From Periplaneta americana (taxonomy: Eukaryota > Arthropoda > Insecta > Blattodea > Blattidae), in contig NC_091125.1 in NCBI RefSeq assembly GCF_040183065.1, forward strand, positions 122,579,121 to 122,643,120: 64,000 nucleotides of DNA, in the 5' to 3' direction. The notes beneath the pieces are model-generated. The model did no database searches. It had not been told where the DNA came from and saw only the letters and a program-made list of their open reading frames with translations. The position numbers were made by a program, and so were the translations under genes. Of the stretch, positions 1-51,300 are shown one piece after another. Position 1 is the stretch's first letter, and every line of letters starts with the position of its first letter.

Positions 1-2229
1 AATGGCATATTCTAGAGCGAAGTTAAAAAGTAAAGGTGATAGTGCATCTCCTTGCTTTAGCCCGCAGTGAATTGGAAAAGCATCAGATAGAAACTGACCT
101 ATACGGACTCTGCTGTACGTTTCACTGAGACACATTTTAATTAATCGAACTAGTTTCTTGGGAATACCAAATTCAATAAGAATATCATATAATACTTCCC
201 TCTTAACCGAGTCATAAGCCTTTTTGAAATCTATGAATAACTGATGTACTGTACCCTTATACTCCCATTTTTTCTCCATTATCTGTCGAATACAAAAAAT
301 CTGATCAATAGTCGATCTATTACGCCGAAAACCGCACTGATGATCCCCAATAATTTCATCTACGTACGGAGTTAATCTTCTCAAAAGAATATTGGACAAA
401 ATTTTGTACGATGTCAACAAAAGTGATATTCCTCGAAAGTTACCACAGTTGGTTTTGTCCCCCTTTTTAAAAATAGGTACAATTATGGACTCCTTCCATT
501 GTTCTGGTAAAATTTCCTTTTCCCAAATAGCAAGTACAAGTTTATAAATTTCGCTATATAATGCACTCCCACCCTCTTGTATTAATTCTGCTGGAATTTG
601 ATCGATACCTGGAGACTTGTACTTTTTCAGATTTTCTATCGCAATTTCGACTTCTGTAAGCGTGGGTTCGGGTATAAATGGCTCAGCAGTTTGTATTTCA
701 ATTTCGTCCCGATCATTTCTATTTGGCCTATGTACATTTAGTAGTTGCGCAAAATAGTTTTTCCATCTGTTTAGGATTGATGGAGAGTCTGCAAGCAAGT
801 CACCATTCTCATCCTTGATAACGTTTACCCTTGGCTGATATCCGTTCTTAAATTCCTTTATACCCTTATATAAATCTCGAATGTTTTTATTCTTACTATT
901 TGTTTCTACCTCATTCAGTTTTTCCTTCAAGTAACCTCTCTTTTTATTCCTAAGTGTACGACTTGCTTCCCGTCTTTCATTGAAATAATTATCTCTCTTC
1001 TCCTCAACTGGATCCTGTAAGAATTTCAATTTTGCCTGTTTCCTTCTTTCTACTACCATGCAACAATCTTCATCAAACCACGGTTTCTTTTTCTTAGTTT
1101 CATAATAACCTATGCTCTGCTCAGCTGCAATTTTGATACTATCTCTGATATTTTCCCACACGCTATTAACATCTAATTCTTTCTCAACTTCGTCGGAACT
1201 TTCTAAAGTGGCAAACCTATTCGAAATTTCGACCTGATAATTTTGCTTAGCTTCCTCGTCCTTTAATTTCAAAATATTGAATTTAGTAATATTAACTTGT
1301 TGCTCTACTCGCTTGGCTACTGATAATCTTTCTCTTAATTCTCCAATCACCAAATAATGGTCAGAATTACAGTCTGCACCCCTGAAAGTTCGAATATCTA
1401 CTATACTAGTATGTCTCCGTTTATCTATCAAGATGTGATCTATTTGGTTGTGTGTCAATCCATCTGGAGAAGTCCAAGTATATTTATGTATATCCTTATG
1501 GGGGAATGTTGTACTTTTGACAATTAAATTTTTCGATGTGGCAAAGTTGACTAATCTAACTCCATTGTCACTACTAATTGCGTGTAGGCTCTCTTTTCCA
1601 ATAGTTGGTCTAAAAATATCCTCCCGTCCTACTTTAGCATTGAAATCCCCCAATAAAATTTTCATGTGATATCTAGGGAACTGATCAAAAGTATGTTCCA
1701 ATTCCTCATAGAAGCTATTCTTTATATGGTCGTCTTTCTCTTCTGTAGGGGCGTGAGCATTTATAACTATGATGTCGCACCATCTACCCTTAAGTACTAA
1801 ATATGATAACCTGTCACTGATAAATTCGACCTTTTTTACTGCTGATTTTATTCTTTTATGAACAAAGAATCCTGTTCCTAATTGGTGATTATTGTTTCCT
1901 TCCCCATAATACAACAAGTAATCTCCTATTTGTGATATGCCATTCCCATCTAACCTAACCTCTTGTACTCCTACGAAGTCTATTCTATATCTAGCTAGTT
2001 CTTTTGCTACTAATGTTACCCCTCCTGTTCTATAAAGACTAGTTACGTTCCAAGTGCCAAATCTCAAATCCTTATTCCTTTGCTGTGGTCGTGCCAGAGA
2101 ATCAGTCCTATTCCGAGGCTTATTATAGGGATACGTAACAAGCTGTTTTTTACGGTGATGGGTTGTTAGCCCTTCGCCCAACCCCCAAGCTGGAGGACCA
2201 CCCCTTATCGGCTGTCCACGACTGCTTAT
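1..2229 (-). CDS. APE endonuclease-reverse transcriptase ORF (partial, intact frame)
   Basis: The frame is open for 743 codons from just after a stop at 2230-2232 to the window edge, and I found no stop on reading it through. The endonuclease starts near codon 56 with RFGTWNVTS, followed by VQEVRLDGNG, NAHAPTEEK, LLGDFNAKVG, a Q-I-D-H box and SDHYLV, all typical of APE-type nucleases that nick target DNA. RT follows: KSPGIDQIPAELIQEG, FKKGDKTNCGNFRGISLL, GDHQCGFRRNRSTIDQI, motif A FIDFKKAYDSV (both Asp present) and GLKQGDALSPLLFNFALEYAI. No Met lies near the start, so initiation probably uses coupling from the small upstream ORF or a non-AUG codon. Loss of the motif C half is due only to the window edge. 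An intact frame this long suggests recent activity; a bacterial or host RT is excluded by the APE domain. Confidence 0.9.
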   Translation of the reverse strand, partial: MSSRGQPIRGGPPAWGLGEGLTTHHRKKQLVTYPYNKPRNRTDSLARPQQRNKDLRFGTWNVTSLYRTGGVTLVAKELARYRIDFVGVQEVRLDGNGISQIGDYLLYYGEGNNNHQLGTGFFVHKRIKSAVKKVEFISDRLSYLVLKGRWCDIIVINAHAPTEEKDDHIKNSFYEELEHTFDQFPRYHMKILLGDFNAKVGREDIFRPTIGKESLHAISSDNGVRLVNFATSKNLIVKSTTFPHKDIHKYTWTSPDGLTHNQIDHILIDKRRHTSIVDIRTFRGADCNSDHYLVIGELRERLSVAKRVEQQVNITKFNILKLKDEEAKQNYQVEISNRFATLESSDEVEKELDVNSVWENIRDSIKIAAEQSIGYYETKKKKPWFDEDCCMVVERRKQAKLKFLQDPVEEKRDNYFNERREASRTLRNKKRGYLKEKLNEVETNSKNKNIRDLYKGIKEFKNGYQPRVNVIKDENGDLLADSPSILNRWKNYFAQLLNVHRPNRNDRDEIEIQTAEPFIPEPTLTEVEIAIENLKKYKSPGIDQIPAELIQEGGSALYSEIYKLVLAIWEKEILPEQWKESIIVPIFKKGDKTNCGNFRGISLLLTSYKILSNILLRRLTPYVDEIIGDHQCGFRRNRSTIDQIFCIRQIMEKKWEYKGTVHQLFIDFKKAYDSVKREVLYDILIEFGIPKKLVRLIKMCLSETYSRVRIGQFLSDAFPIHCGLKQGDALSPLLFNFALEYAI

Positions 2230-2299
2230 TCAATATATTCGCAGCTACCCTCCATATCTGGAGGCCGTCTCCTCTATCCGCAACCTGAGGACGCGCCAT
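2150..2299 (-). CDS. Small ORF1 of the RTE-like element (49 aa)
   Basis: An ATG at 2299 opens a 49-residue frame (MARPQVADRGDGLQIWRVAA at its start, ending ANNPSP) that stops at 2150-2152. It overlaps the beginning of the endonuclease-RT frame by about 80 bases in another frame. RTE-type elements are known for a very short first ORF overlapping the second, so I read this as ORF1. No domain is recognisable; it could instead be a leader frame that aids ORF2 translation by reinitiation. Confidence 0.6.
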   Translation of the reverse strand: MARPQVADRGDGLQIWRVAANILNKQSWTADKGWSSSLGVGRRANNPSP

Positions 2300-2400
2300 G
2301 CCGTGGTGATAGGGACCCACAATACATGGATTATTGGTGCCACTTAATTTAATAATAAATTGCTAAACACATACACAGACAGACATTGTCCTCGAAGGTA

Positions 2401-2603
2401 TAGATGAGGAGGCGAGATCTGGCATGTGAGCAATATGAGAGGGGAAAGAATGAGTTATCAGAAAGAGAGTTCCTTTCAGGATGGTTAATATTACACGGAA
2501 ATTCATCTCAGACTAAAACATATTATCTTCCCCCTCCACACCCTTTAGTGATATAGCCACTGTACATGATAAGGTCATAGGACAGGTCTTGCCTCCTCTA
2601 CTA
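2401..2603. mobile_element. 203-bp MITE with TA target duplication
   Basis: The ends read TAGATGAGGAGGCGAGATCT on the left and the imperfect complement of TAGTAGAGGAGGCAAGACCT on the right, flanked by TA on both sides (2399-2400 and 2604-2605). The second duplication unit has the uninterrupted sequence near 35875 (AAGGTAGAACCGTTTTGGC), which is the empty site. TA duplication suggests a Tc1/mariner-like source. It is too short to encode a transposase. Confidence 0.8.
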
Positions 2604-3520
2604 TAGAACCGTTTTGGCATCAGGTATGCTAAACATGGACATTTCCACAAAAATCTCGAGATGAATTTTTCAGTATTAAAATACTCTATCTTATATTTTC
2701 ATATTTCATCTACTGAGAAAATATAAAATATTAGTGACATACTTTTACTATTTGTAATACGGTACCGATATCTTTAGTGAAGTTCAGCATAATTCGTTTC
2801 GATTGTTTAATTAAATACGATTAATTAATACCGATATATAAAACATATAATTCTAGAATAACGTTTATAAAATATTTTAACTATTATGTTTAGCTACATT
2901 TTTTTAAATATTTCCTAGCAGCATAATATATATGAAATCTGGAGCAGTATCTACTTTTCCTGTGATTACAGTGCTAACTATCAAATACGATTCTAAGCTA
3001 GTGTTATCTTTAACTCTGATAACATTTCTACTTATCGTAAGGGCAGAGAGCTGTTAGCCTTCCTACGAGTCCTTTATCAAGTCATCATTAATCCAGCTCT
3101 CAGTTTCGTATGATCTAACCTACAGTATTTAAAACAAATACGAAAGAAAAAACAAAGGTTAAAAGTCGAAAGCTTCAATTTGTGTTGAAATAAACTCTAT
3201 ATAATCTCAAAACTTTCTGAATTTCCCTTTCGGAAATTCAGGATTGTTTCGCGTAACAAAGAGATAACAATCATATCATCATAATGCTCAGAATAGAATA
3301 GTACTCACAGTGACACTGCAATATCTCCAGAAATACGACGGTACAATTTACCGGAAGCATTTTGATAGTGCACTTGATAAAATGGTAGTGAAGCTCGACA
3401 TACCTAATATAAGGATTTGAGATAAAATTTTGATTAGGATTAAATTTATGGCAAGGAGTAAGTATCTATGAGCGTCGTTCCATTGAATTTGCTATCCATC
3501 GATAGTTTGCTGTGCTGCTG

Positions 3521-3805
3521 CTGGTAATGATGATGATGATGATGATTTTTTTTTATTTTATTGGGTTATTTTACGACGCTGTATCAACATCTAGGTTATT
3601 TAGCGTCTGAATGATATGAAGGTGATAATGCCGGTGAAATGAGTCCGGGGTCCAGCACCGAAAGTTACCCAGCATTTGCTCGTATTGAGTTGAGGGAAAA
3701 CCCCGGAAAAAACCTCAACCAGGTAACTTGCCCCAACCGGGATTCGAACCCGGGCCACCTGGTTTCGCAGCCAGATGCGCTGACCGTTACTCCACAGGTG
3801 TGGAC

Positions 3806-3844
<39 letters not shown>

Positions 3845-3846
3845 CC
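3521..3846. repeat. (ATG)n microsatellite split by a SINE
   Basis: ATG/GAT trinucleotide runs at 3526-3547 and 3807-3844 flank the inverted SINE at 3549-3806. In unit 2 the equivalent runs at 36981-37083 and 37999-38084 have no SINE. Minus-strand poly-Ser frames across it are repeat translations. Confidence 0.8.
3549..3806 (-). mobile_element. tRNA-derived SINE, family B, reverse orientation
   Basis: The head on the minus strand reads GTCCACACCTGTGGAGTAAC with a B-box-like GGGTTCGAATCCCGG, followed by a conserved body (CCGGGGTTTTCCCTCAACTC, ATGAGTCCGGGGTCC rev.) and the tail ATAACCCAATAAAA. Further copies are at 7267-7506, 53279-53523 and 62378-62515. Pol III type 2 promoter boxes and a tRNA-like head identify it as a SINE rather than a tRNA gene. 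Confidence 0.85.
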
Positions 3847-4423
3847 CTCACAATCAACTTCTAAGGGTACTTACAAGACGTAGCCTGGTTCGTTACCTAG
3901 TTGGTCGCTCGTAACCTAGTTGGTCGTTGGACACAAAGTTGGGGTGTACAAGACGGAGCCTGGCTGGTTACCGTGTTGGTCGCTCGTAAGCTAGCTGGTG
4001 GCTGGGCAGAAGATCGGGGTGATGAGAACGAAGTTTGTTTGCGCCTGCCAGTCAATGTAGCTGAACTTACTCTGCTTTTTTCAAAATTGTATTTAAAAAA
4101 CAATAATTTATAAAAGTGCCAGAATGGATTATATTGGTCTTCAAGTTCTCCTAAACGTACCTTAGATATTTGGGTATTTTCAGTACGGAAATAACCACGT
4201 AAATAATTCCACTTTTCTGGAAAGCGTCATAATAAAACCCTTTCATTAAATTCCATATAGTTCATTCTGATACACATAGAGTATTGATAGAATAATATGT
4301 ATTAATTGTCAAAAGGTCAGTACCGGTAATTATATTGTTTCTAAAATCGTCACTTTCTGTAAAATATAAATTATTCATTTACAAAGTTACTTATTATTAG
4401 TATCCATTTCACACTACCTCATT

Positions 4424-4512
4424 CTAGTGCCGAGATCAAGAAAGCATGGGGCTCTATCTCCATGCTCCCGAAGTGCCTTTATGGCATGTGAAGGAGCTAC
4501 CTTTACCTTTAT
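4424..4512 (+). mobile_element. SINE family A, 3' fragment
   Basis: About 90 bases match the 3' body of the family A SINEs at 17834-18110 and 51341-51593 (AAAGCATGGGGCTCTA, CTTTATGGCATGTG, CTACCTTTACCTTT). The tRNA-like head is missing, so it is 5' truncated. A frame across it is a chance ORF. Confidence 0.75.
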
Positions 4513-4959
4513 TAGTATTCATTTCAACTCCTATTCCATTTCACAATTTCACAATAACATATGGGCTTTGGTGGTCGAGTTGAACCTGATTTCAAAATTT
4601 GTAAACATTGATTATCCTACCGAAAATTTGTTTTTAGAATTTGAAGTCTTGAAAATACATCCAATTTATATCAATGCATTATTAAATTTCACATATAAAA
4701 ATCACACATATTTCAGATCATATACTCACAAACAAAACCAAAAGCATGAATACAATATGTTTGTTGGAAGCCAAGTGTTTAACGAGCATTGCTTTCAACC
4801 AAAGTACTAATATCTGCCCTAGAATTTATATCAAATTAATAAAGAACTACACAAATTTATCTATCTCCAACAGTTTGAAATTTAAAAATGTATGTAAGCA
4901 ATTTGTTATAAGTAATTATTAATTTTTAGATCTGATGTTGTAATTTATGCGTCTACATT

Positions 4960-5066
4960 TATTTTGCATCGAATCCTACTCTGAGAATGAGAACACACTC
5001 TTTTAGGGGCGTGCTAGAATGTTGTAAATTTACAATTTTTCTGTATTGTATTTTTCTGGCAATAAA

Positions 5067-5132
<66 letters not shown>
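4960..5132 (+). mobile_element. LINE-type 3' tail with (TTA)n
   Basis: A segment containing AGGGGCGTGCTAGAATG and AATAAACATTATTATTA ends in about 20 TTA repeats (5068-5132). A related tail lies at 9022-9125 (AGGGGCGAGCTAAAGTTTTT). Shared 3' sequence plus simple-repeat tail fits the 3' UTR of a non-LTR element; no coding portion is attached. Confidence 0.5.
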
Positions 5133-5133
<1 letters not shown>

Positions 5134-6089
5134 TGAAATTAATCTTTCCCAATCCATTATAAGCAGTAGGCGTTTAGCACGTGGGGAAGTTCTACGGACG
5201 CATGCGCAGTAAAGACATTTACTGTAGGTGGTTGGTAGCCGGAAAAATGAGGTGATTCATTCTACGAGCTACCAACGGGCTAACAGGCGACGTAGCAGTC
5301 TACCGACCAGGCCTCGTCTTGCACGTCTCCATTGCTTAACGTTCGGGCCATGGATGAACTTACTGAGTTTCCCGTAACACATACTAGAGGCGCTGTTGTA
5401 GAAATTGATCTTGCTGCCATCTATTTCTGGGAGGGGCATTATTACATCTAGCAGCGCACCAAGTAGCAAAAAGAGTAATTACTCCATGCATTTAGCAGCG
5501 CACCTGGTGACGAAAATGTTAAACTGTGCAGAAAGTATTTCCTCCCACCCTCATCAATATTCAAAACTAACCCAATTTAAAATAAAACATTTACATTTTT
5601 ATTCCTCACAGCATCTTCTACTGAAAATTCTTACCGAAACCAACAGGAAGATAAAAGAGACGCTCTATTTTACACTACCCAATTAAAATATAATCAGACA
5701 GAGACAAAAAATAAAGCAAAAGTTAGATGATTGGGATTGTATTCTTTGGGTATTTATTGTATAGCACAATGGAAAAATCTGAATAACTACTTAGATAGTT
5801 CACTTTATTATATTACTATTACTTTACAATACATTCAACAACACTATTTTTGCAACGTCCATAAACATCAATGTTTAACATATACTGCTTAAACACACAC
5901 GTATCACTTTATGTTCACTTATTAGCAAGTTTCTGTCTGCCATCTCGTTCCTCGAGCAATATCTCGAACAGATAAATAGAGAACTCTGGGTAATGCACCC
6001 AACACGTAGTTTTAATGTTCACCACCTACGACGTTTGGCGCAGATCATCTTATTTCAGTCCCCCGCCGCCAGATGGTGCTGACCGCAGT

Positions 6090-6348
6090 TTCGCATCCTA
6101 TTATATACATCAATCATCAGATCATACATCCACTACTGCTGTGAGATATGGGGCCTAGCTCATCCTCGCCACCTGAAGAGTCTGGAAGGAATTCAAAGAG
6201 CTGTCTGCAGAACAATCACTGGTGCACATTACCTCACGAACAATGTCAAACTCTACAGTGAACTTCATATACCCTTCCTGGTTGTTCATATTCAAGATCT
6301 ACAGACTACATACAGGAATAAGCTACTTCATCATGCCAACCTTTAATA
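6090..6348 (+). pseudogene. Jockey-type reverse transcriptase C-terminal relic
   Basis: The frame starting near 6093 reads IIRSYIHYCCEIWGLAHPRH, then LEGIQRAVCRTITGA, LHIPFLVVHIQDLQ and ends with tandem stops at 6343-6348. This matches the thumb/C-terminal region of Jockey-like RTs (usual form: xIRPVLTYGCEVWG then LQ-x-IQNKFLRMITGAP). It is a 5'-truncated copy without catalytic motifs and cannot be functional. Confidence 0.7.
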
Positions 6349-8082: not shown

Positions 8083-8342
8083 TTACAGAGATTCAATGTG
8101 TGAACCACGAGTGACTCGAAAGATGTCCAAACGATAATCAAACTCTTCCCATACCCTTTTCAACATATCCTCTGTGACCGTGGCGGCAGCTTCTCGAATT
8201 CTGGTTTTTAGTTCTTCTAAATCACGTGGCAAAGGCGGTACAAATACACGGTCCTTTAGATATCCCCATAGAAAAAAGTCACATGCAGTCATATCGGGTG
8301 ACCTAGGTGGCCATGTCATGAAACATCTGTCCCTTACTCTAG
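8083..8342 (-). pseudogene. Transposase 3' fragment, left arm
   Basis: The minus frame contains VRDRCFMTWPPRSPDM, CDFFLWGYLKDRVF and DIFRVTRGSHIESL and ends near 8083. It duplicates the right-arm protein with a few substitutions. It keeps only the final part of the DDE/D domain (the last acidic box around SPDMTACDFFLWG), so it is inactive. Confidence 0.8.
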
Positions 8343-8390
8343 CACACAGAAACCTCACAGAATCATTGAACATGGGTGTTATTCACCAAA

Positions 8391-8889
8391 GGTGAATGTT
8401 TTCTGCGCGTTGTCACAACGAAAACTGTACGGACCTTTCTTCTTCATTGAGGCTACTGTGACTGGACATTCATATCTGGACAAGTTGGAGCAATGGTTGG
8501 TGCCTCAACTTAGACAAGATCTCGATGACGATTTCATGTTTCAGCAAGATGGGGCTCCGCCACATTTCCACAATGCAGTTCGTGCTTACCTGAATACGGA
8601 GATGTCTGATCGTTGGATAGGACGTGCTGGAGTAAGGGACAGATGTTTCATGACATGGCCACCAAGGTCACCCGATATGAATGCATGTGACTTTTTTCTA
8701 TGGGGGCACGTAAAGGACCGTGTGTTTGTACCGCCTTTGCCACGTGATTTAGAGGAACTAAAAACCAGAATTCGAGAAGTTGCCGCCACGGTCACAGAGG
8801 ATATGTTGAAAAGGGTATGGGAAGAGTTTAATTATCGTTTGGACATCTACCGGGTCACTCGTGGTTCACACATTGAAGAATCTCTATAA
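8391..8889 (+). pseudogene. Mariner-like transposase C-terminal half
   Basis: A 165-codon frame reads YGPFFFIEATVTGHSYLDKL, FMFQQDGAPPHFHNAV, SDRWIGRAG, WPPRSPDMNACDFFLWG and ends EESL at 8889. QQDGAPPHF carries the second catalytic Asp, and SPD-x-x-x-CDFFLWG the third acidic box, of the mariner-superfamily fold seen in Tc3/mariner-like elements of insects. The N-terminal helix-turn-helix and the first catalytic Asp are missing. It starts with GTG, so this is not an intact gene. Confidence 0.85.
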
Positions 8890-17176: not shown

Positions 17177-17606
17177 GTTATTATTATTACTATTTTACAG
17201 TCATTATTTTATTTTTCCATTAACACTAATATCTAGGTAATTGTCACTGTCTCAATATAACATGTGCTGTGCTGATCATACTAATTCTACTATGCCTTTA
17301 GTTGTGAGATTATATTCATATGTATTAATTCTTTTTTTTTAAGTTAATATTTGTATACTAGAATGTATTTTCCTGTTTGTGATTATGTATTCAGTCTCTT
17401 TTTTATTATATATATTTTTTATTATTGTTATTTAAAGTTAATACTGATTGTGTATGTGTATTCAATCTCTCTTTTTTACTTAATTATGTTTATTATTATT
17501 TTTAAGTTAATATTTGTATACCGGTATGTATTTTTCCGTATGTGATTTGATCCTGGTTGAGTGGAAGAGAAGGCCTGATTGCCTTAACTCTGCCACGGAA
17601 AATAAA

Positions 17607-17663
<57 letters not shown>

Positions 17664-17719
17664 GGGCGGCCGAGTAGCTCAGTTGGCCTGATGGCCTTAA
17701 CTCTGCCACGGAAAATAAA

Positions 17720-17763
<44 letters not shown>

Positions 17764-17765
17764 CA

Positions 17766-17833
<68 letters not shown>

Positions 17834-18105
17834 GGGCGGCCGAGTAGCTCAGTTGGTAGAGCAGCTGGCTACGGACTGGAAGGTCCGGGGTTCGATCCCA
17901 GGTGGTGACAGGATTTTTTCTCGTTGCCAAACTTTCAGAACGGCACCCAGGTTCACTCACCCTTCTATAAAATTGAGTGCCGGGTCTTTCCCGGGGGTAA
18001 AAGGCGGTCAGAGCGTGGTGCTAGTGCCAAGGTCATGGAAAGCATGGGGCTCTACCTCCATGCCCCCCAAGTGCCTTCATGGCATGTTACGGGGATACCT
18101 TTACC

Positions 18106-18160
<55 letters not shown>

Positions 18161-21100
18161 GTTACAATAGTAAGAATTTGCATCAAAACTAATTGTGTCA
18201 AAGATACTTTTACTTTTAAAATAACTATATTCTCACTTTTTATGATCCACTGAAACCATTGAAAATTTCTATTATATTGGTACATTCCGGGATTTGAATC
18301 CGGGAGCTCCTGAAAGATATCTAGTATTAACAAATGAGCTACCTAGGTGAATTAATAACTAAAAATATAGCTATTTTCCGTTACGAATTTTCTAAATCGC
18401 AATTTATTTCGCCTCTGTAGTCAAAGTAAGACTGTGTGGTAAGTGATGCAATATTATGAATTATCGTCTCTTGTTGTTAACACATTTGTTTCGCGTTAAG
18501 TGAACTTTGAAAAAGTATATAAAATACTCTGATCAATCTTAAATATTGATTTTTAATACAACTGGGTTATAAATTAGTTCTCGAATATACGTATTTATAA
18601 TTGATATTAATAGTAATATTAATAATGGTTTTATTTAACTAGGGATAGTTCAGGGCATTGGGTCATCTCTAATGCTCACAAGAGTAAAAAATTAATACAA
18701 AGAACCATTTTACGTACACTTGCAAAAAAATAACTACTAGTACATATATCTGCTTGAATCATACGCTTATAAAAATTAAATGTCTTAGTATTTGAGGTCA
18801 TAAAGAACGCATGTGTGTCCAATTCACATAACGAAATTCATCTACCTATTACATTGCAATTACACAATTTAATTTAATCAAGTCTTCTAATTTATAGTTC
18901 AAAGAAATGAAATACAAAATTTATCAAATAACTCAATAGTTACAACAAGGCTGAAATACGTAATATGTCAGTCATTATTGTGACATTAATTTCTTGTTTA
19001 GTTACATGAATATTCAACAAAAGGATTCTGATAATAATTGTTACAAGACGACAGAAAATTGAAATCACAATCACACTACATTTTATCTATATTACATATC
19101 GTCACAAATAGTGTGCATTTATACGAGTCTAAATAAAATTATTTGCTTATTGACGTATGTTTTCATTTTATTGTAGTTATGACATCAACCAATACACAGT
19201 TCGAGCTGGGTCAAACAATTACAATACTGGCGGAACTGTGCACAAAGTCGTCCAGTGGGAGTACCATGCTCAATACCAGAATTACGCCTATTGGAACAAC
19301 GATGTGGCAGTGGTCAAGGTGGTTAATTGCAAATGTTACATATTAGATTTAAAATTCTTCCTTAGTAATATAATTTAGTAACCAACTGGATTGTTCCGAA
19401 ACGCGAACAACATATACTAAGAAATTACGTGTAAACTTCAGCAAGGGTCAACGGGTTTTCGTCACTAACTTTTCGTCAACGTAATCATTTGTCACAATTT
19501 GTTTGTCACAGAGCTTTTCTTCACCTAAGTACGATAAGTCAGAACACCAGATACATCACAAACATATCTATTTTTCGCCGTTTAAAGTTTCGATATGCCT
19601 ATCAGCAATAATTTCCAGTTCATCCAGAAAAAATAAATGTTTTGCGATATTACAAAAATAAAAAACCTGTGGAAACGTTTTGCTATACTATAAACATATA
19701 GATTATTAAAACGTTTTCTGATACTATGAATATAAAAACCATGGAAATGGTTTCAATGCTATAAAAATGAAAACCATGAAAATATTTTGCATTACAAGAA
19801 AATAAAACCCACGAAAACGTTCCGCGATACTATAAAAATAAAAACCATGGAAATGTTTTGCGATACTACCAAAATAAAAAAAAAAATTGAAATTTTCTGA
19901 AAAACAATTAAAATAAAAACCATGGAAATCTTTGGCAATCCTATAAAAATATCAACCATGCAAATGTTTTGCGATGCTATAAAAGAAAAAACCATTGAAA
20001 TATTTTGCGAAACTATAAAAATAAGAACGACGGAAATGCTTTCTGATATTACAAAAATAAAAACCATGGAAATGCTTTGCAATATCATAAAAATAAAAAC
20101 CATGGAAACGTTTTGCGATACAATAAAAAAAAAACAATACAAATGTTTTGCGATATTATGAAACCACAGAAACGTTACGAACGAGTATCGTATGACATAC
20201 AATCCTGAGACAAACGTATATTATGAAACCATAAGTTCTGTGACGAAAATGTTATGTGCGACGACTCACATGTATGGCGAGTAAATTATGACGAATTTAC
20301 ACACCTGTTTTGCGGAGTGTTTATGCCTCATCTGCCTCACCTGAGATCTTGTGATAAATTCTTTCTAAAGAATTTTTCAACACAAGGGTAGAGTAATCAA
20401 CGCTTACTGGCATAGGTCTGCCTACTAGATATATTCTCCTGAAACAGTTGTCAAACGGTACAATGGAAGAAGCGCAGAACATGCGACGCGATTTTTTAAA
20501 AAGGCACGGTAAAGAGCATACTATAACCTTTCTCATTTCTTATCGTTCTTGGAAAATCTATAGGAACGAATCTCTAGAGTTGTGTTTTAACCTAGATCAT
20601 ATATGTAACATATTGCTCTTCTCTATGTTAAAATCGGCAGCACTTTGAAGAGAACAACCACCAGGATCGGCACCCGTCCGCCGTAAACGAACACGAGATG
20701 GCAGTACAGTCGCTAATGCAATTCAAACGGGAGTTATGACGTGACTCCTTATGTAACAACTAGATGGCAGCATAGTAAACCTGACAAAAGTTGTTCCGTC
20801 AAAGCCTATAAGACCGAGCAATCTGGGTACATATGGTCTAGGGTTTTAAGCATGCCTAGATGTTTTAAAGTAGCAGTCCCACCACTGGAATCACTCTGTC
20901 TTCAAAATATAGTTGTTTATGGTTACAACAATACGTAACAATAGGTACACAGAAGTTCGCAGTGAACATAATTACTCAGAATAACTTTACATTACGGAAA
21001 TGCCGCAAGTTACAAAATAAAATAATGCAACCTCATATGCACAAATATTTTAGTCACAAAATGCGAATCAGATTTGCAAGGAAATGTGTAGAGTAAAGAG

Positions 21101-23446
21101 AATGAAATGCTTTATTGGGTATAACATAAGATGATACGTTAAGTTAGAGAACTCAATTCTATAAACATTTAGACAATAATAACGGTACGGTGATACTAAA
21201 GAAAATGGGAAATAAAGGAAGAAATGAAGGAAATAATATATAAAAGATAGTTGAAGAAAATACAAAGAAAAATAGAATGCAACAAAGAGAAAAAGAAAAA
21301 TCATGAGGTTAAAACTGATAGAAGCAAACAAGAAAGAAAGAAATGTACACGACAATAAATGAGAAATATAGAATGAAATATGAAATAAATGTAGGAATTA
21401 ATAAATTTACAACTAGTGCAGTTCCAATATATATATATCGATGGATTTCACTTTTATTATCCAGCTTAAGAACAAAATTATTTACTGAAGATAAAGGTTA
21501 AGGTAAAATGTATGATCCAATACTGAGCAAATTTTAAGACATGGTGATTCGCTGTAAAGATTAATAATACGGTTTCAAAAAAATATATCATTTTCCTTAG
21601 CACCCAGATGTTTTATTGGCAATGTCTCTTGTTTGAAAAGATGACCAGAACCTATGTTGAAATTCGTAATTAAAATCATTTTTACAGGTTAGTCCACCTC
21701 TCACATACAGTGCCAAAGTGCAACCAACTGTGCTGCCTGCAGACGGTGCTGAACCAGCGGGTGGAGCTACAAGTACTGCCATTGGATGGGGAAATGCTTG
21801 CGTAAGTACCCTATATTAACTATTCGTTGATAGTGTTTGTAATTTTCCTTATTGAAATATTGACGATATTCCAATGTCATTAATAAACGAAATTATTCTG
21901 TGGAAACTTTCTACACAGCTGCGTTACCACTGTAAATTTCATAAGATATTTCTAGGACCGAACCCTTCAGGTCTGTATCGTGTAGATATTCTCACTTACA
22001 GCATTTCCGTATGTGAACGGAAGGCCATTGTCCATTCCTTTCGTCATAGAGTGAGCTGTTTGTTTGATAGCAGTCTATTGGCCTTAATCTCCATTAAACA
22101 CTTTCGGTAAAATGTGCAATGCGTTCCCTTGGCAGTATTGTCTGATGGTAATTCTTACACAAAACGTATAATTTTCGTCTTGTGGTGATGGAATTCAACA
22201 AACTACTTTGACTTTCACTTTCTTCTGCTTGGTAGATTTGTTCAACATTTCACTGGCTAGGCGTCTTTCTAATCATTAGTGACTTACTATCCCACAAAAA
22301 CATTTCAACTGACATAGCTACAACTAGGCCAAAACAATTACGGTCTTACTAATAAATCTTTGTAATTTTTATAAGACAATTATGCAGAGTTAGGACAGAA
22401 AATGGTACTAATAAACCATGCATAAGCGCTGGATTTATAAGCAATGTGTAACTATATATGGGAAATGCTTTGCTGTAGTTATATACACGAAATCACCTGT
22501 TTGAGAGTTGTATACAAAGAAAAAATGGCCGCCAAACTAACAACTGTCCGTATAGATTGTCATTAAATAAAGAGCATAAAATAATTAAAATAATATTGCA
22601 GCAGCTGTACTCTTTGATCAAAATATAGCGTGGTAATCGATCATGCCCAGTTGTACTGTCGATACTTAGCGCTGCACATTAGAGCACACTACCGGATGAA
22701 ATAAAGAATCTCAGTTATTCTATTACTTTTCGTAATAAAATATTGAACAGTACATATTTATCGTGTTCTAGGAAGATACTTTTAAACACCAACTTATTCC
22801 AAATAACTTAATTACTTATTTAATGTAATCTTTCAGTATCAATGTCCTGGAATTCCTGACTTGCAAAAGGTCAGCCTCGTAGTATATTCACTTCAAGACT
22901 GTTTGTCCTACTATGGAGAAGGTCCCACTAATGACATGGTCTGCTCTGGAAAGCCAGAAAACCAACAAGGAATCTGTCAGGTAAGTGAACATATAATAAT
23001 TCAGTTTTTAATATACAACTCGTTAACAATCTCTGTTATGGTCGACTAAGGCCCTCTGACCAGCTAAGTAAAATCGATTACTTAGTTAAAATGGTTGGCA
23101 ATGGAAACAAACAAACACACATACACACACATACAAACACGCATACATACACCCATACATACGTACAATGACAAAGATTTCCACAAATCTCTGAATTCTG
23201 CGTTTACGCCTGTGTTTACATAACAGTACAGACAATGTCAAATTTTTCAGATTCCCAGCAAAAAACATTAATCATTTTAATGATCTTTTCGTATTTTTCC
23301 AGGGTGATTCTGGAGGTGCTCTCATAGTCGACGGTGTCCAGATCGGTATCACGTCTTGGTCAGGACTTCCTTGTGCTTCAGCTCCAGGCGTTTGGACAAA
23401 GATTTCTCATTATAGAGACTGGATCAGGCAGAGAAGTGGTGTGTAA
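13457..23446 (+). CDS. Secreted S1A serine protease zymogen, gene 1 (7 exons, 257 aa)
   Basis: Coding exons: 13457-13505, 15956-16047, 16696-16784, 19177-19318, 21688-21801, 22837-22980, 23303-23446; all introns are GT-AG and join to 257 codons plus TAA. Residues 1-17 ([17 protein letters not shown]) are a signal peptide encoded by exon 1. A 15-residue prosegment ends in NIR, then the mature chain starts [15 protein letters not shown] at residue 33, so activation needs a trypsin-like cut. The triad is H73 (LTAAHC), D119 (NNDVAVV) and S213 (QGDSGG). S1 pocket: G207, S230 and G239 at chymotrypsin positions 189, 216 and 226. Gly replaces trypsin's Asp189, so chymotrypsin-, elastase- or collagenase-like cleavage is expected. 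Eight mature-chain Cys include an unusual CYQC (C162, C165). Likely an extracellular digestive-tract enzyme; site of expression is inference. Confidence 0.92.
13506..15955 (+). other. Intron 1 of protease gene 1
   Basis: GTAAGT to TTTTCAG, phase 1. Besides the palindromic MITE at 14373-14568 I see no recognisable element. A GC-richer stretch (15130-15560) without clear identity may be another degraded repeat. Its minus-strand 77-codon frame has no domain. Confidence 0.7.
14373..14568. mobile_element. 196-bp near-palindromic MITE with TA duplication
   Basis: GGGGAGAGTCGGGTAGTATC on the left is matched by its near-complement at the right, with TA on both sides (14371-14372, 14569-14570). Inversion continues inward (GTTTCTTTCATCTACC against GGTAGATGAAAGAAAC, then GTTACGTTTCT against AGAAACGTAAC), leaving only a small loop. 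The whole element would fold as one long hairpin. Tc1/mariner-derived by its TA site. Confidence 0.88.
16048..16695 (+). other. Intron 2 of protease gene 1
   Basis: GTCAGA to GCCTACAG, phase 0. Collinear at both ends with gene 2 intron 2, which is longer by an about 950-base insertion. No repeat or gene recognised here. Confidence 0.7.
16920..17663 (+). mobile_element. LINE 3' end with coding relic and (TTA)n tails
   Basis: The frame at 16937-17100 reads [20 protein letters not shown] then [15 protein letters not shown], the C-terminal signature of Jockey/CR1-like RT polyproteins. A 3' UTR follows, interrupted by a (TTA)n run (17117-17185) and ending GAGTGGAAGAGAAGGCCTGA...GGAAAATAAAATTATTATT. 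The (TTA)n tail runs to 17663. Gene 2 intron 3 lacks it, so it inserted after the duplication. Confidence 0.7.
17664..17833 (+). mobile_element. Chimeric SINE head / LINE tail with (TTA)n
   Basis: A SINE family A head (GGGCGGCCGAGTAGCTCAGT) runs at TTGGCC directly into the LINE 3' terminus (TGATGGCCTTAACTCTGCCA) and then a long (TTA)n run (17725-17833). This is a template-switch or recombination product joining the two families at a shared short sequence. Confidence 0.65.
17834..18162 (+). mobile_element. SINE family A, full-length, with (TTA)n tail
   Basis: The tRNA-like head has an A box (TAGCTCAGTTGGTAGAGC) and a B box (GGGGTTCGATCCCAGG). The body has CAGGATTTTTTCTCGTTGCC and AAAGCATGGGGCTCTACCTC. 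The 3' end TACCTTTACCTTTTT leads into (TTA)n. The tail resembles that of the neighbouring LINE, suggesting that LINE supplies the reverse transcriptase. The 218-codon frame across it is a repeat translation. Confidence 0.88.
18285..18358 (-). mobile_element. Old tRNA-like SINE relic shared by both units
   Basis: On the minus strand CCTAGGTAGCTCATTTG is followed by CCCGGATTCAAATCCCGG, giving A-box- and B-box-like elements about 45 bases apart. The paralogous relic lies at 45435-45512 in gene 2 intron 3, so insertion predates the duplication. It does not form a convincing functional tRNA. Confidence 0.5.
18360..19176 (+). other. 3' part of intron 3, protease gene 1
   Basis: AT-rich unique sequence collinear with 45515-45640 and 46255-46923 of unit 2, ending ATTGTAG before exon 4. 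I see no element in it. Confidence 0.6.
19636..20175. repeat. Degenerate 36-bp minisatellite in intron 4 of protease gene 1
   Basis: About 15 tandem units of consensus TTTTGCGATACTATAAAAAT followed by AAAAACCATGGAAATG. The 36-bp period is a multiple of three, so open frames appear on both strands (for example 19792-20202 minus, 19922-20161 plus); they are artefacts. Gene 2 intron 4 has no such array. Confidence 0.9.
20591..20842. mobile_element. 252-bp MITE with 7-bp target duplication, copy 1
   Basis: Terminal inverted repeats start CCTAGATCATATATG and, from the other end, CCTAGACCATATGTA. GTTTTAA flanks both sides (20584-20590 and 20843-20849). Gene 2 intron 4 carries a probable empty site (CACCTTAAGCATGCCC near 48072). 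A second copy with another perfect 7-bp duplication is at 56557-56809. No coding capacity. Confidence 0.88.
20850..21687 (+). other. 3' part of intron 4, protease gene 1
   Basis: Collinear with 48075-48963 of gene 2 (shared purine-rich AAAGGAAGAAATGAAGG-like stretch and the acceptor region). No gene or element recognised. Confidence 0.6.
21802..22836 (+). other. Intron 5 of protease gene 1
   Basis: GTAAGT to CTTTCAG, phase 0. I recognise no repeat or coding sequence. The paralogous intron 49078-50330 holds a palindromic MITE not present here. Confidence 0.6.
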
Positions 23447-23715: not shown

Positions 23716-23837
23716 TGATCTCCAGATATCGATCAAATTCCAGAAGAATTAATACAAGAGGGTGGAAGCGTATTATCTAGCGAAATTTATAATCTTGCAC
23801 TTGCTATTTGGGAAAAGGAAATTGTGACAGAACAATG
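23716..23837 (+). pseudogene. RTE-like RT relic, 5' piece of an interrupted copy
   Basis: The frame gives SPDIDQIPEELIQEGGSVLS then EIYNLALAIWEKEI, matching the same region of the intact ORF at the window start (SPGIDQIPAELIQEGGSALY). It stops at GAACAATG, exactly where the 3.2-kb transposon begins; the match resumes at 27041. Confidence 0.88.
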
Positions 23838-26800
23838 CGTCCGCTGGCGATCAAATCCTCGTAACTCCAAAATTGAAAATTTTACAGGAGAAAGAAATAA
23901 TGTTACTGTGACTGTGTTTTTGAAACAAAATCGATGTGGTTTTGAATATAGCAACCGAAATGTGATACATTAAATGTACGATAGCAGTATATACTGCAAA
24001 TTATATACATTTGTGTGTGGTGGAGTTACGGGTTTTTGTTACTGGTTAGGACTTTGGATTTACGTGGTTTCTACTAAATGAACACACTTCTTTCGTATAT
24101 TTTATGTTCTTTTAAGTGATCTCAATAGTTGTTCACAACTACATGGATGCCAAATTAGTAAGTGACTACACTTAAGTGGAATACAGGCATGTTTGTATAT
24201 TTTATGACAAATTTAACGTCGATAAAAATGAATACAAACTTTACAGATAACCATTATACAAACTGTTAAAAAAAATTGACATAAACGATGTAAAGACAAC
24301 TTTAATTTTTAATTTCTCAATTTTATAAATATTTCTGTTGTTCGTTGTGTTGGGATTTATACAAAATTTTATACTTTCCACTAAACTGGAAGAAAATGTC
24401 TGCTGAGGTTTTGTAGGAAGTCGTAGAATACATTGAAATCATGGGGCATAATTTTATTTATTTACTGCAAGTAGGTGAGAATTTGTATAAAGCTGTGGTA
24501 CAGACATATTTTCTCTGTTCTTTGGCATCCTTTTAGAAATAATGCTCCATGCACAATTCAAATTAAATTTATATTCAATAATTATTCCCGAATTGTCGGC
24601 GACAGTTGGGTCTCCTGGTTTTGAAATAAGTCCAATGGAACTTCGAAACTTTACTACATACTTTGAAGAAGTCATGGTGAAGATATTACATTATGTATGG
24701 CTAATTTTTTGTCTGGCAGTTTTGCATGCTTCAACATACACTGCAGGTGTAAATTTAGCTGTTGCTTAATTTTCTTTCTATTGTAGAGTGAACAGAATCA
24801 CACTTCATTTGATTGTAACCTATCTCAAGAAACTCCTGAACAATTCTCATGGTTAAGGCTATTAAATCATTTGCCAAAATACTATTTCTGTTTTGGTAAG
24901 TACATTCATCACTATACAAAATTACTTCATCTTCAGGTACTTTTTTGTAAATAAAACTCACTATTATACTGGTAAATTAATTAGAATTTAGTCTATCTTC
25001 AACCTCATGCCATCGATAACAAAATACATCTTTTCATTGTGAATCAAACAGTGTAAAGTTATGCAGTTTCAGTTTCGTCTTAATGGTACAGAGCTGAGTC
25101 ATGGAGAGATACGCACAGAAGTACAGCCTGCAAGTCAATAGTCAGTACTTTTTTAATGTCTTTTTTGTCTGCTTCCTTAGACTTTCTTGCTTCATATTTT
25201 CTAAGAATATGATAGTAATATTTTTCATCATCAACATTTCCTGCATCACGAGAGCAGCACAAATGACAGTGTTTTTTTATGTGAAAATAGACTTAAATTT
25301 TGTTCCTCAAACACATACATAAATATATTTATTGAAGTCTGTGATTTTTTTCTGTATAGAATGTCTCGTCTCATGTTCTTTGTAGAGGGCAGCTTTACTC
25401 TGCCAATTTGGTTCAAAATATAGCCTATTTTTCTGGAAGTAGTTTGGCAATGACAGAACTCCAATTTTGGCAGCTCAGATAAAGTTGAGAAGTATTCATT
25501 CTTAAGTTATTACCTTTTTTTTTCTTTTACTATTAACAGCTTCTTTGGTTTGATGGTAGATTTAGAATTAGCTTAGGTCCCATTTCTTACAGAGCATTCC
25601 TCTATGGAAAATATGTTAAGAAACATGATCTTGCAGACTTTTTGTATTTTACTGTCAATGAAAAATAATTGTGCATAGTATAAAATCGATTTGATTATTT
25701 TGAATTTCCCCTTCGACGCTGAAGTGGAATACAATCTACAAGCCCTATTACAAACACCTTTTTTTCTCCCATGGCAGATTAGTCCAAAAATTATCGAAAA
25801 TTGTCTTTTGTTGATTTTCTGAAATTATTTTACAAATCCTACTTTTTGCATTACAAGAATATTTCTTTCTACTTCATATCTCCATTTTCTGCCTCATCTT
25901 CCTTCCATGTGATTTAGTTCTTTCATTCGTTGTTTCTTGTTGACTGTCAGTTTCCATTAGCCGTATCCTGATTTCTTATATAAGTATTAAGTTCTGCCAC
26001 TTTATTGCTAATAGTAAATGAAAAAAAAAATATTGTTTCATTACCATTTCAACAAACCATAACAAAATAATGTATACCAATGCAGCAACAATTAATTTCA
26101 AGTGTCACTCACTTGTCTCTCCATTTGCGTTTCCTGATTCACTTTCGTTCTAAAAGCTATTATTTTTGACATATAGTGTTCATCACAACTACTGTCAGTG
26201 GATTCCTCTTCACTGCTGTAAGTCATATCAGCCTTAGTATTACTACTGAGTTTAACGGAGATATTAGATATTGTGATACCTTTAACAGGATTTTTTGCAA
26301 TATCTCCACAGAGTGCAGACTAATTGCTAAAGTGTTGTGATCTGTAACACCGAAGTTTACAGAGGAACCATAATAATGGTGTTTAATATTTATCTTGTTC
26401 TAAATAAAAATAATGTAATTAAAGCATTTAACTATTTACTTATTCATTCATTCATTTATTATTTAATTATGTATTTATTTATTCATCTCTTAGGCCTAAT
26501 AAAAGCGCCATTTCAGTTCCCTTTATTACATCACATTAAAATAATCCTACTAACCTGAAATGACTTCGAAATTCTGCGTATTATTTCCATATAGTGCAGG
26601 AACAATTTCTGAACTGTTGTATTCTGTAACACCGAAGTTAACAGCAGATTATTCTCATACTGATCATTTGACATAGCATATTTTTAACGTAGCATCAGTC
26701 ACAATGCCTCTTATGTCAGTTTCAGTCTGCCAATAATCAATCAGCATGGGTATTTAAAACCTCGTAATATCCCACCCAATGGAGTTCCGAGCTTTTGAGT

Positions 26801-27040
26801 CTGAGATTAAAAGCAGTGGAAACCTCGTGATTCCAGTCTGCTGGAGATCCGAGGTTTTGAGTCTGAGATTAAAGGCTAAGGAGATACGAGGTCTTTGTAA
26901 TTGGTCAGTAGATGGCTTCTGTAAGATTTGGAGTCACAATTCTTTAATAGAACATGGGAAATATTATTTGTTGCCAGGTAATGGCAAAAAACCGATTTTA
27001 CTTGTAAATGGTGTTACGAGGTTTTGATCGCCGACCGACG
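23838..27040. mobile_element. 3.2-kb TIR transposon, 4-bp target duplication, superfamily uncertain
   Basis: Left end CGTCCGCTGGCGATCAAATC and right end, read inverted, CGTCGGTCGGCGATCAAAAC; over 31 bases they match at 26. AATG is duplicated on both sides (23834-23837, 27041-27044) and the interrupted RTE copy joins seamlessly across it, proving the borders. Subterminal copies of CCTCGTA-type motifs recur at the right end, and 26779-26812 is repeated at 26843-26876. The minus strand holds a decayed transposase-like frame. A 4-bp AATG duplication with CGTC ends fits none of the common superfamilies I know. Confidence 0.88.
24390..26270 (-). pseudogene. Decayed transposase-like gene of the 3.2-kb element (DUF7869-like)
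   Basis: Read 26270 to 24390: an acidic N-terminal piece (EESTDSSCDEHYMSKIIAF), then RRDILYRKKSQTSIN, then DDEKYYYHILRKYEARKSKE, then MSFIYKKVPEDEVILYSDEC followed by TYQNRNSILANDLIAL and MKCDSVHSTIERK. The YSD-x-C-x-x-QNRN and MECDS-H-AIE-like motifs are those of an uncharacterised RNase H-like domain I know as DUF7869, common in repetitive insect and aquatic-animal proteins. Several stops and frameshifts separate the pieces, so it is a pseudogene. Acidic residues in YSDEC and MKCDSVH are candidate catalytic residues (inference). Assignment rests on motif memory only. Confidence 0.55.
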
Positions 27041-27842
27041 AATGGAAGGAGTCCATAATCGTACCTATCTTTAAGAAGGGGGACAAGACTAACTGTAGTA
27101 ACTTTCGAGGAATATCACTTTTGTTGACGTCGTACAAAATTTTGTCCAATATTCTTTTGAGAAGATTAAATCCATATGTAGATGAAATTATTGGGGATCA
27201 TCAGTGTGGTCTTAGGCGTAATAGATCAACTATTGATCAGATATTTTTTATTCGACAGATAATGGAGAAAAAATGGGAGTATAAGGGTACAGTGCATCAG
27301 TTATTCATAGATTTCAAAAAGGCATATCACTCGGTTAAGAGAGAAGTTTTATATGATATTCTTATTGAATTTGATATTTCCAAGAAACTAGTTCGATTAA
27401 TTAAAATGTGTCTCAGTGAAACGTACAGCAGAGTCCGTATAGGTCAGTTTCTGTCAGATGCGTTCTAATTTACTGTGGGCTAAACCAAGGAGATGCACTA
27501 TCACCTTTACTTTTTAACTTTGCTATAGATTATGCCATTATGAAAGTTCAGGATAACAGAGAGGGTTGGAATTGAACGGGTTACATCAGCTGCTTGTCTA
27601 TGCGGATGACGTGAATATGTTAGGAGAAAATCCACTAACGATTAGGGAAAATATGGGAATTTTACTTGAAGCAGGTAAAGAGATAGGTTTGGACGTAAAT
27701 CCCGAAAAGATAAAGTATATGATTACGTCTCGTGACGAGAATATTGTACCAAATGGAAATATAAAAATTGGAAATTTATCCCTTGAAGAGGTGGAAAAAT
27801 TCAAATACCTGGGAGCAACAAATGTAAATGATGCAAATCAAG
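27041..27842 (+). pseudogene. RTE-like RT relic, 3' piece
   Basis: Continues from 23837: SIIVPIFKKGDKTNCSNFRG, DHQCGLRRNRSTIDQI, FIDFKKAYHSVKRE, a stop after FLSDAF (27466-27468), then the motif C box YADD in LVYADDVNMLGENPL and EEVEKFKYLGATNVND. The second Asp of motif A has become His (AYD to AYH) and the frame is broken, so it is dead. It ends near 27842, where a SINE-like tail and a hAT element follow. Confidence 0.88.
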
Positions 27843-48300: not shown

Positions 48301-51300
48301 TTTCATCATCAATTGCGTATTAGAGTTCAAAGAATATATGAACAGTAGTGAAAGGTTGAAATAGACGATAAATTTAAACATTACATTCATTGAATATTCA
48401 GACAATATAAGAGGCAATATAACCCCGGTACTAAAGAAACTTTGAAAGAAGAGGGGAAGGAAAGGAAAACTAAAATAAAGAACAAAGAGAGCTGAAGACA
48501 AAAAAGAGAATACGATTGCAACAAAGAGAATAAGGATAAAAAGGAGAAAAGATAAATTAAGGGGATAAACAAAAAAGAAAAGATTATGTATGAAAATAAA
48601 GGAAAACTAAGGATAGAAATATGAAATAAATAAAAACATAAAGAATTAATAAAGATTGAACTAGTACGCTTCCAATTTTAAAACATATTTTTAACTTGTA
48701 TTATTCATTTCATCAATAAAATGACAAAATTATTTAATGAAGATAAAGTTTAAGATGAAAGGTAAGAGAAAAATGCTATGTAAAATTTGAGACGTACATG
48801 GTGAATATATATATATATATATATAAAATTGTGAAAATTAATAATACAGTCTCAAAAAATAACACATTTTCCTCAGTACATGTGTGCTTTATTACCTATG
48901 TCCCGTGGGCAGAATGATGAGAAAACAACAGAGTGCAATTCGTAATGATGATAATCCTTACAGGTGAGTCCACCTCTCACATACAGTGCCAAAGTGCAAC
49001 CAACTGTGCTGCCTGAAGACGGTGCTGAACCAGCGGGTGGAGCTACAAGTACTGCCATTGGATGGGGAAATGCTTGCGTAAGTATCATGGCATTAAATAT
49101 TTTATGGTGTTTGAAATTATTTTATTTTTTAACTATTTAAGATATTTTCATGAAATTAATAAACGAAAGTACTGTATTAGATGCAAGCCTCCTCCAAAAT
49201 CAAGTTTTCCATCGAAAATCTCACAGCATATTCCGAGGATCGAATCCTTTACCTCTTCCCAGTTCTAATAATTGTTAACAGATAGCGCTGAAAAGATAAC
49301 CATGTATGAGACTGAGCATTTTGTTTCAAAACAGGCTCCTGGCCATCGTCTTCTTTAGAAATTTAGGTGAAATGTGCACAGCCACGCAGCTAATTGTAAA
49401 TTTCTTGTTTCTTGTTATTAGAGCACGTTCCGCATCCCTTGCGTTAATCTTATTTTCCAGATCAAGATATCTATCACCCTTGACATCCAGTTCAAATTCT
49501 GAAAGTGTTTTGCGAACAAGAATACTTCAAATCCGGTATTCAAACGTTCATATTTTGTAGTGATTTCTGTTTTACCTCGTGATGACACACAATTTCAGTC
49601 CCAGCAATGAAATGCTTTTCAACAATCGAGTGATTTTAGTCTCCATAATGCAATTCTTTTCAGTGATAGATTGATGACAGTAACTCTGTCGTCGATTTGC
49701 AAAAGGAGACACGTCCAAAATGACAAAGTATTGGGAAATCGTAAAAAAAACCATAGCATACTTAAAAATCATAGATCCTGAATGTATGTATCCAATGTGA
49801 TCTAACTATAAAAAATAAATATGAATATTTTAATTTGTTAATTTAGTTATAATTGTTGCGATTTTCCAACGCTTTGTCATTTTGGACATGTCCCCTTTAG
49901 CAAATCGACGACAGAACTACAGTATTCTAATAGAACTATAACTAGATCACAATTAGATTAAAATTACAAAACCTGAGATGAAATTCACTGGTTACCTAAA
50001 TCTCAACGTTCAATACATTTCACCAAATAAACATATTAATATAACGGGAAGCATTATCCCAACTTTCACATGACGTCTCATATTATATATTTAAGAAATA
50101 GTTGCATCTGTAGTCGATAATTTTTATTCAAAACTTCTCCACATCATATCACACATATTTAGTGAAATCAGTATGCATCAACTTCATTTTCCTAACATTC
50201 TTTAAGCAAAATGATTTATATGTTTTTTTTCAATATTTAATGTTTATTTTGTTGTGGGAAGCAAATTGTAAACATTATTCTAAATAACTGTGTACTATTC
50301 AACTATTTATGTAATGTCGTATTTCTGCAGTATCAATGTCCTGGAATTCCTGACTTGCAAAAGGTTAGTCTCGTAGTATACTCACTTCAAGATTGTTTGT
50401 CCTACTACGGAGAAGGTCCCACCAACGACATGGTCTGCTCTGGAAAGCCAGAAAACGAACAAGGAGTCTGTCAGGTAAGGAAATACATAATTATGTCTAA
50501 TTATACAACTTCTTCTCCACTTGCTAAAGTTTCCTGTTATAGTCAACTAAGACCCTAAAGGACACGTTCAACAGTCTCGAAGTTCGCACAAAATCGTTTC
50601 TGAGTGAGAGACACATAAAAAATGGTATTTATTAAGTCTATCTACCTATGGTAGAATAGTAGAGAATTACATGTAACAATTTATATTTTTTAGGTGAGAA
50701 ATAACATAAATTTTATAAATGTCATTCAGCGACAAGGTTTTCTGTGTGCAGTAATCTATGACACAGTCTCTCAATTTTGCGTCGCTTTCGAAGAAATCAT
50801 TACTATAGGTCTCGCAAGCAGGGATTATCGACGATATGAATGCGGACGAAACAATCCGATAAGGAAGAGCGAGCAACTGGAAAGGTCACGGGATAACTTG
50901 AATGATATTCAAGAGTACATTCAGAAGAGAAACAACATCGATAGAATCAGTCTTGCATTGTGATAGTTATATTACGGCTATAGTTTCAGTTCCAATGAAT
51001 ACGTATCTTGTTTGAAGTTCGTTTATTTTATTATGTAGTAATGGAGCGTTCCCCTCGCAGAGTATCATTATTTTATTCGTAGACATAATGTTGAGCGTTT
51101 AATTCGCTTCGAATTTCTCTCTTCATTTCCACAGGCGATTTCCCCATCTATTCATCTTCTTGGAAGAGGCAGTACTTACATCGGCCCGTATCTCTCGCTC
51201 CCTCGGCGTGCCTACATACACACGTCAAAACAGACAGTAACGTCACCAGTGTTGTCCGGTAATCGTTCCTTGCGCGAGCTATAATTGTAATCAGTCGGTT

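Follow-up and report, generated by a model that had tools for sequence, protein, structure and literature searches.

A decayed cut-and-paste DNA transposon in Periplaneta americana and its relatives with open genes for a probable DUF7869 transposase

Introduction

Groups of cut-and-paste DNA transposons can be told apart by the target-site duplications they leave, which measure 8 bp in hAT, 8-11 bp in MuDR, 7-8 bp in P and 6-7 bp in Dada, and 4 bp in Ginger1 and Ginger2 as well as in Kolobok, the duplication of which is TTAA. Sola is described as having a DDD transposase, 4-bp duplications, terminal inverted repeats (TIRs) of 11-1124 bp and a size of mostly 2-9 kb (PMC10741241). The duplications of Sola2 are AT-rich, being AWWT in one amoeba and ATAT, AAAT and ATTT in another (PMC3627910).

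Here we describe an element in a 64,000-nt stretch of the Periplaneta americana genome (termed the window; assembly GCF_040183065.1, contig NC_091125.1), together with its copies and relatives in the same genome. Like Sola elements as described, the family has AT-rich 4-bp duplications, TIRs and a length of 2-9 kb; the relatives carry open genes for proteins matching DUF7869 (Pfam PF25273), a domain to which the Pfam description assigns no function; in the present case its gene is bounded by defined transposon ends.

Results and discussion

Borders and setting of the window element

The 3.2-kb insert proves to be a genuine cut-and-paste DNA transposon and represents one decayed copy of a family with dozens of members (termed F1); the coordinates of its features are listed in Table 1. 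It starts with CGTCC and ends with GACG, and its two TIRs, each of 32 nt, are 84% complementary. The insert interrupts a reverse transcriptase that we take to be of RTE type. When the flanks are joined minus one AATG, a single in-frame reading of this reverse transcriptase results, EIVTEQ-WKESIIVPIFKKGDK, and the right-flank ORF (27028-27468) matches Pfam RVT_1 with an E-value of 5.8e-17. The AATG on both sides, the inverted ends and the restored RTE frame bear out the reading of the initial annotation, that of a complete transposon with exact borders. Further downstream, the RTE reading ends after KYLGATNVND at about window position 27830, where the RTE copy seems to be truncated or interrupted a second time.

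The TIR core recurs near both ends of the element. In the F1 consensus it has 13 matches at ≤6 mismatches, both terminal copies counted, whereas 30 controls shuffled in 2-base blocks gave 1.9 on average and 7 at most, which suggests several putative protein-binding sites.

Table 1. Features of the window element and its flanks (window coordinates)
Feature	Position	Strand	Remarks
Complete non-autonomous DNA transposon, family F1	23838..27040	.	3203 bp; 92.7% identity to 30-copy consensus
Left target-site duplication AATG	23834..23837	.	sequence reading
Right target-site duplication AATG	27041..27044	.	sequence reading
Left TIR CGTCCGCTGGCGATCAAATCCTCGTAACTCCA	23838..23869	+	F1 consensus, CGTCGGCTGGCGATCAAAACCTCGTAACTCC
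Right TIR	27009..27040	-	
Subterminal repeat of TIR core (CAAAACCTCGTAACTCCA), left side	24021..24038	-	F1 consensus at 184, 2 mismatches
Subterminal TIR-core repeat array, both orientations, right side	26755..26899	.	array found on consensus, window positions read off
Presumed RTE-type reverse transcriptase reading, 5' part	23719..23837	+	interrupted by F1 copy
Presumed RTE-type reverse transcriptase reading, 3' part	27041..27468	+	Pfam RVT_1
DUF7869-type (probable transposase) gene relic	24420..25858	-	six pieces aligned to L073 residues 149-663; stops, frame jumps
Best-kept relic piece, YSDECTYQNRN (second conserved Asp) and GYNQMKCDSVHSTIE (third conserved Asp)	24761..25081	-	

Copies and target sites of family F1

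A search of the 3.23-Gb assembly (91 contigs) with the window element gave at least 46 matches when 40 of 175 candidates were scored; at least 32 of these matches, the window included, are near full length and run from query positions 1-7 to 3202-3203. Different borders in other copies had been named by the initial annotation as evidence against its reading; in the 37 copies fetched with their flanks, the borders lie at identical places, some with single-letter changes, and the exceptions are L019, which is altered in the first six bases of its left end, and L040, the right end of which lies outside the fetched stretch.

After L022 and L025 were dropped, their flanks being equal to those of L018, 36 distinct sites were compared, the window included. 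An exact 4-bp duplication is present at 30 of them, compared to 7.1 expected from randomly re-paired flanks. The six misses comprise L017, L032 and L042, each with a duplication one letter off; L019, which lacks an exact duplication; L044, with flanks that hold no matching duplication; and L040, with its right end beyond the fetched stretch. The exact duplications are ATAT (12), ATAA (7), TTAT (3), GTAT (2) and six singletons. Among the latter is the AATG of the window copy, which is untypical of a family in which ATAT and ATAA together account for 19 of the 30. Overall, 22 of the 30 consist of A and T throughout and none is TTAA, so that the 4-bp, non-TTAA duplication first read at the window copy holds for the family. 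The base preceding the duplication is C or T at 29 of the 30 sites, and the base following it is G or A at 25, which indicates a palindromic favoured target, Y-WTAW-R.

The copies L018, L022 and L025 (C9:4.7 Mb, C2:4.3 Mb and C9:3.3 Mb, respectively) sit on two chromosomes and agree in all 15 bases to the left and to the right of the element, which points to a copy carried along in a larger duplication or in another repeat.

The gene relic and the non-autonomy of F1

The protein encoded by the relative L073 aligns with the minus strand of the window element at an E-value of 2.8e-40, across 8 in-frame stops and frame jumps. Fragments of the element gave no direct DUF7869 match against Pfam, and the homology is visible only via the relatives with open genes. 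As to the "DUF7869-like gene" reported initially, the homology is therefore upheld by the L073 alignment, whereas an intact gene is not, what remains being a pseudogene.

The decay is common to the family. In a consensus of 30 F1 copies (the window and 29 others, with the two flank-duplicates and six copies that are partial or interrupted excluded), the longest stop-to-stop frames do not exceed 102 codons; the 25 younger copies differ from it by a median of 2.8%. The window copy groups with L009, L010, L014 and L023, and the consensus of these five is likewise broken. The two subfamily consensuses have stops in common, such as those in ECT*QNRN and DDEKY*YHI, and we infer that F1 arose by amplification in trans of a master copy whose gene was no longer functional. 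The window copy is thus not autonomous, and the F1 gene was already dead, a point absent from the initial annotation. A clearly autonomous F1 partner was not found, the closest fetched relatives, L068 and L069, being broken too. Eight further candidates for autonomous F1 copies (L046, L047 and L040-L045) were rejected, as DNA comparison with the consensus showed them to be partial or interrupted.

Relatives with open DUF7869 genes

A 56-residue piece containing YSDECTYQNRN was used as a query against the genome, and 150 places were scored of 778 candidates. About forty of the scored places are F1, and the rest show 42-89% identity over varying lengths, some of them with long open frames. Six stretches with relatives were fetched. 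The element of L071 (positions 534-4005, 3472 bp) is flanked by ATAT on both sides and contains an open stop-to-stop frame of 800 codons; its inverted arms, 50 nt in length including five flanking bases, are 92% complementary. The element of L072 (positions 2245-5919, 3675 bp) is flanked by TTAT on both sides, with an open stop-to-stop frame of 790 codons. The ends of both are built alike, CGTCG-N9-CAAAACCTCGTA (end sequence CGTCGTTAAGATAGCAAAACCTCGTATCTC), and in both the DUF7869 frame is the sole frame of ≥150 codons between the ends. The initial annotation had linked the domain to defined transposon ends, and in L071 and L072 an open gene and matching ends do occur in the same element.

The other four stretches are less complete. 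L073 has an open frame of 668 codons, and ATAT follows its right end, CGTCGGTGAAGAAACAATACCGCGTAACTA; L070 shows a right end only. The left ends of both were not found within the fetched stretches. L069, a broken F1 relative of about 79% identity, has CTAT on both sides, and L068, another broken F1 relative (76-86% in the main pieces), has no matching duplication, so that a 4-bp duplication is present in three of the four relatives with both ends read. L068 aligns with the L073 protein over residues 109-663 in one piece (E-value of 3.5e-94), with 13 stops.

Beside the F2 element of the L071 stretch (on C1), long open frames occupy positions 4479-6299, of which 4479-5774 matches Pfam Dimer_Tnp_hAT with an E-value of 1e-6; both hAT-like frames lie outside the element ends.

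Conserved aspartates of the DUF7869 protein

The L073 protein matches Pfam DUF7869 with 28.9 bits (E-value of 1.1e-6), above the curated cut-off of 26 bits, and L071 (22.7 bits) and L072 (22.9 bits) fall just under it. At E ≤ 0.1, the three proteins match only DUF7869 and weak unrelated Pfam models, with no transposase model and no integrase core among them. Pfam holds models for the transposases of hAT, MuDR, P, Tc1/mariner, piggyBac, Harbinger, CACTA and Ginger, and none of these groups is matched by L071, L072 or L073. NCBIfam gave nothing meaningful for L071 and L073, nor did a profile of the two against the sequences of solved structures (best E-value of 0.094, for a ribosomal protein, and 0.55 in another search).

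Three aspartates are invariant in the three proteins, namely D401 (VFTMD), D478 (Y[SN]DGC) and D519 (GHTQMECDS) in L073 numbering, with spacings of 77 and 41 positions; their contexts in L073 itself are VFTMDLQA, YSDGC and HTQMECDS. An RNase-H fold with a DDD triad may be predicted from these residues.

The third aspartate belongs to a DSVH motif in L071 and L072 and reads DSVQ in L073; a further DUF7869 sequence presumably lacks DSVH. The motif in two of the three open proteins resembles the C/DxxH signature described in PMC9587614, and the family could in principle belong to one of the superfamilies with that signature (Kolobok, MuDR, hAT, P or Dada) and have an odd duplication. We regard such membership as very improbable, as DSVH is not strictly kept and no Pfam transposase model is matched. 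Moreover, the ATAT-type 4-bp duplication misfits the lengths known for these groups. Kolobok shares the 4-bp length in addition to the C/DxxH-like motif, but differs in its TTAA target, which is absent from the 30 exact duplications here. More generally, duplications of 4 bp that are mostly A/T and never TTAA speak against most groups with established duplication lengths. Ginger1 and Ginger2 also resemble the present family in their 4-bp duplications. Ginger, however, encodes a Gypsy-like integrase (PMC10741241), whereas no integrase core is matched by the open proteins.

Association of end motifs and DUF7869 genes

The end pattern CGTCGN9CAAAACCTCGTANCTC has 139 matches in the genome, and the variant CGTCGN9CAANACCVCGTA (CAANACCVCGTA) has 864, giving 1003 together; the reversed control gave 0 for each. 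The ends were paired with the 150 scored of the 778 candidate DUF7869 hits. Among 100 listed of the 139 first-pattern ends, 58 have a scored hit at a distance of up to 6 kb. The other 42 are distributed over F3 (17 of 21), F4 (9 of 9), F1 (8 of 45), F2 (6 of 23), F5 (1 of 1) and F6 (1 of 1). These listed ends form 30 convergent pairs, 23 of which enclose a DUF7869 hit (F1, 15 of 16; F2, 6 of 7; F3, 2 of 7).

The initial annotation had also named DUF7869 genes consistently lying without these ends as evidence against the link. Of the 103 scored protein hits on C1-C11, 37 have a listed end no more than 6 kb away, against 0.06 expected by a rough estimate over 2.1 Gb, and the remaining 66 have no listed first-pattern end nearby, some of them belonging to the variant-end family and some having neither end. 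The association is partly trivial, because the pattern was derived from F1 and F2; F3 and the variant-end family provide more independent support.

Among 100 listed of the 864 variant ends, there are 42 adjacent pairs with a median length of 2.7 kb, three of which enclose a scored DUF7869 hit; these are 3788 bp (with a 644-codon frame; C1, 115432620-115436407), 3328 bp and 2600 bp long. On C1-C3 there are 19 non-F1 hits, four of them beyond the listed range of variant ends. The 15 scorable ones comprise five at ≤1.5 kb from a variant end, three in or beside F2 ends and seven with neither, and two of these seven have a stop inside the matched stretch.

Elements of about 2.7 kb with the ends CGTCGCTTAAGAA[CA]CAATACCGCGTA account for nearly all of the 98 lettered C1-C3 variant matches, of the 864, and are far more numerous than the window family F1. 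In viral contigs and prokaryote genomes, searches with two to six short patterns each found no relatives, which is weak evidence of absence.

These counts bear on whether the DUF7869 gene might be a passenger or a captured host gene, with another protein moving the elements. The 42 of 100 listed ends with no scored hit within 6 kb fit such an origin, as does the amplification of F1 although its gene is dead in the window copy and in the whole family. Dead genes, however, are normal for non-autonomous families; families with diverged ends carry the DUF7869 gene too, and in L071 and L072 no other frame within the element reaches 150 codons, all of which makes a passenger gene highly unlikely.

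Proposed mechanism

The DUF7869 protein is very probably the transposase of these elements. We hold with good, though not full, confidence that the window contains an old F1 copy, non-autonomous itself, and that the autonomous members of the related families in this genome encode a DUF7869 transposase of about 670-800 residues. This protein would bind the CAAAACCTCGTANCTC (CCTCGTA) repeats at and near both ends, the element would be excised by an RNase-H-like centre composed of D401, D478 and D519, and it would then be inserted at Y-WTAW-R, the joints on the two target strands lying 4 bp apart. The F1 copies would spread in trans, the gene being dead in their common ancestor.

A domain that had no assigned function would thereby become a probable transposase with defined ends, a target site and candidate open-gene copies, and proteins that now carry the DUF7869 label could then be recognised as products of mobile elements. 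Matching ends, the genome-wide end-motif matches and open frames of 790-800 codons offer a testable system within one genome.

Relation to Sola

We lean slightly towards a Sola-like transposon, for which Sola2 is the nearest group as regards the target site, the comparison with Sola being one of descriptions. The features shared with Sola and Sola2 as published are the 4-bp AT-rich duplication (all A/T in 22 of 30 here), TIRs, a length of 2-9 kb and occurrence in animals, and the DDD transposase described for Sola may have a counterpart in the three conserved aspartates. Compared to Sola2 as described there, only 12 of the 30 duplications, all of them ATAT, follow a strict AWWT, and the target here is Y-WTAW-R; in addition, the ends here begin with CGTCG, and the TIRs measure 32 nt, compared to 12-21 bp in amoebozoan Sola2. 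The suggestion of an "undescribed" transposon group is consequently not established, given that the initial annotation had left Sola out and that the published features of Sola largely fit.

Alternatively, and as a more doubtful proposition, DUF7869 proteins could be the transposases of a new superfamily that is unrelated to Sola or to any named group. It would be a large animal group with ends CGTCG-N9-CAANACCNCGTA, core arrays as binding sites, a palindromic Y-WTAW-R target and a 4-bp stagger, of which several families, some with open genes, exist side by side in this genome. Consistent with it, the three open proteins match DUF7869 and weak unrelated models but no Pfam transposase model, and L071 and L073 have no meaningful NCBIfam match and their profile no meaningful match among solved structures. 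A full-text search of open literature found no mention of DUF7869. On the other side, the length, the AT-rich 4-bp duplication and the possible DDD triad agree with Sola and Sola2 as described, and the absence of a Pfam match carries little weight, as Pfam may lack a model for Sola. A Sola-like transposon therefore stays our preferred reading.

Other features of the window

A long open fragment at 8302-8889 with DDFMFQQDGAPPH and PRSPDMNACDFFLWGHVKDRV resembles what we take to be a Tc1/mariner-type transposase. Immediately upstream of the RTE copy, exon-like pieces at 22807-23446 presumably derive from a trypsin-type serine protease. A tRNA match on the minus strand at 3729-3801 (Rfam RF00005, 35.3 bits) is possibly a tRNA-derived SINE. 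The stretches 17511-18170 and 51263-51595 have one 30-letter translated string in common, and are likely copies of one SINE-like repeat.
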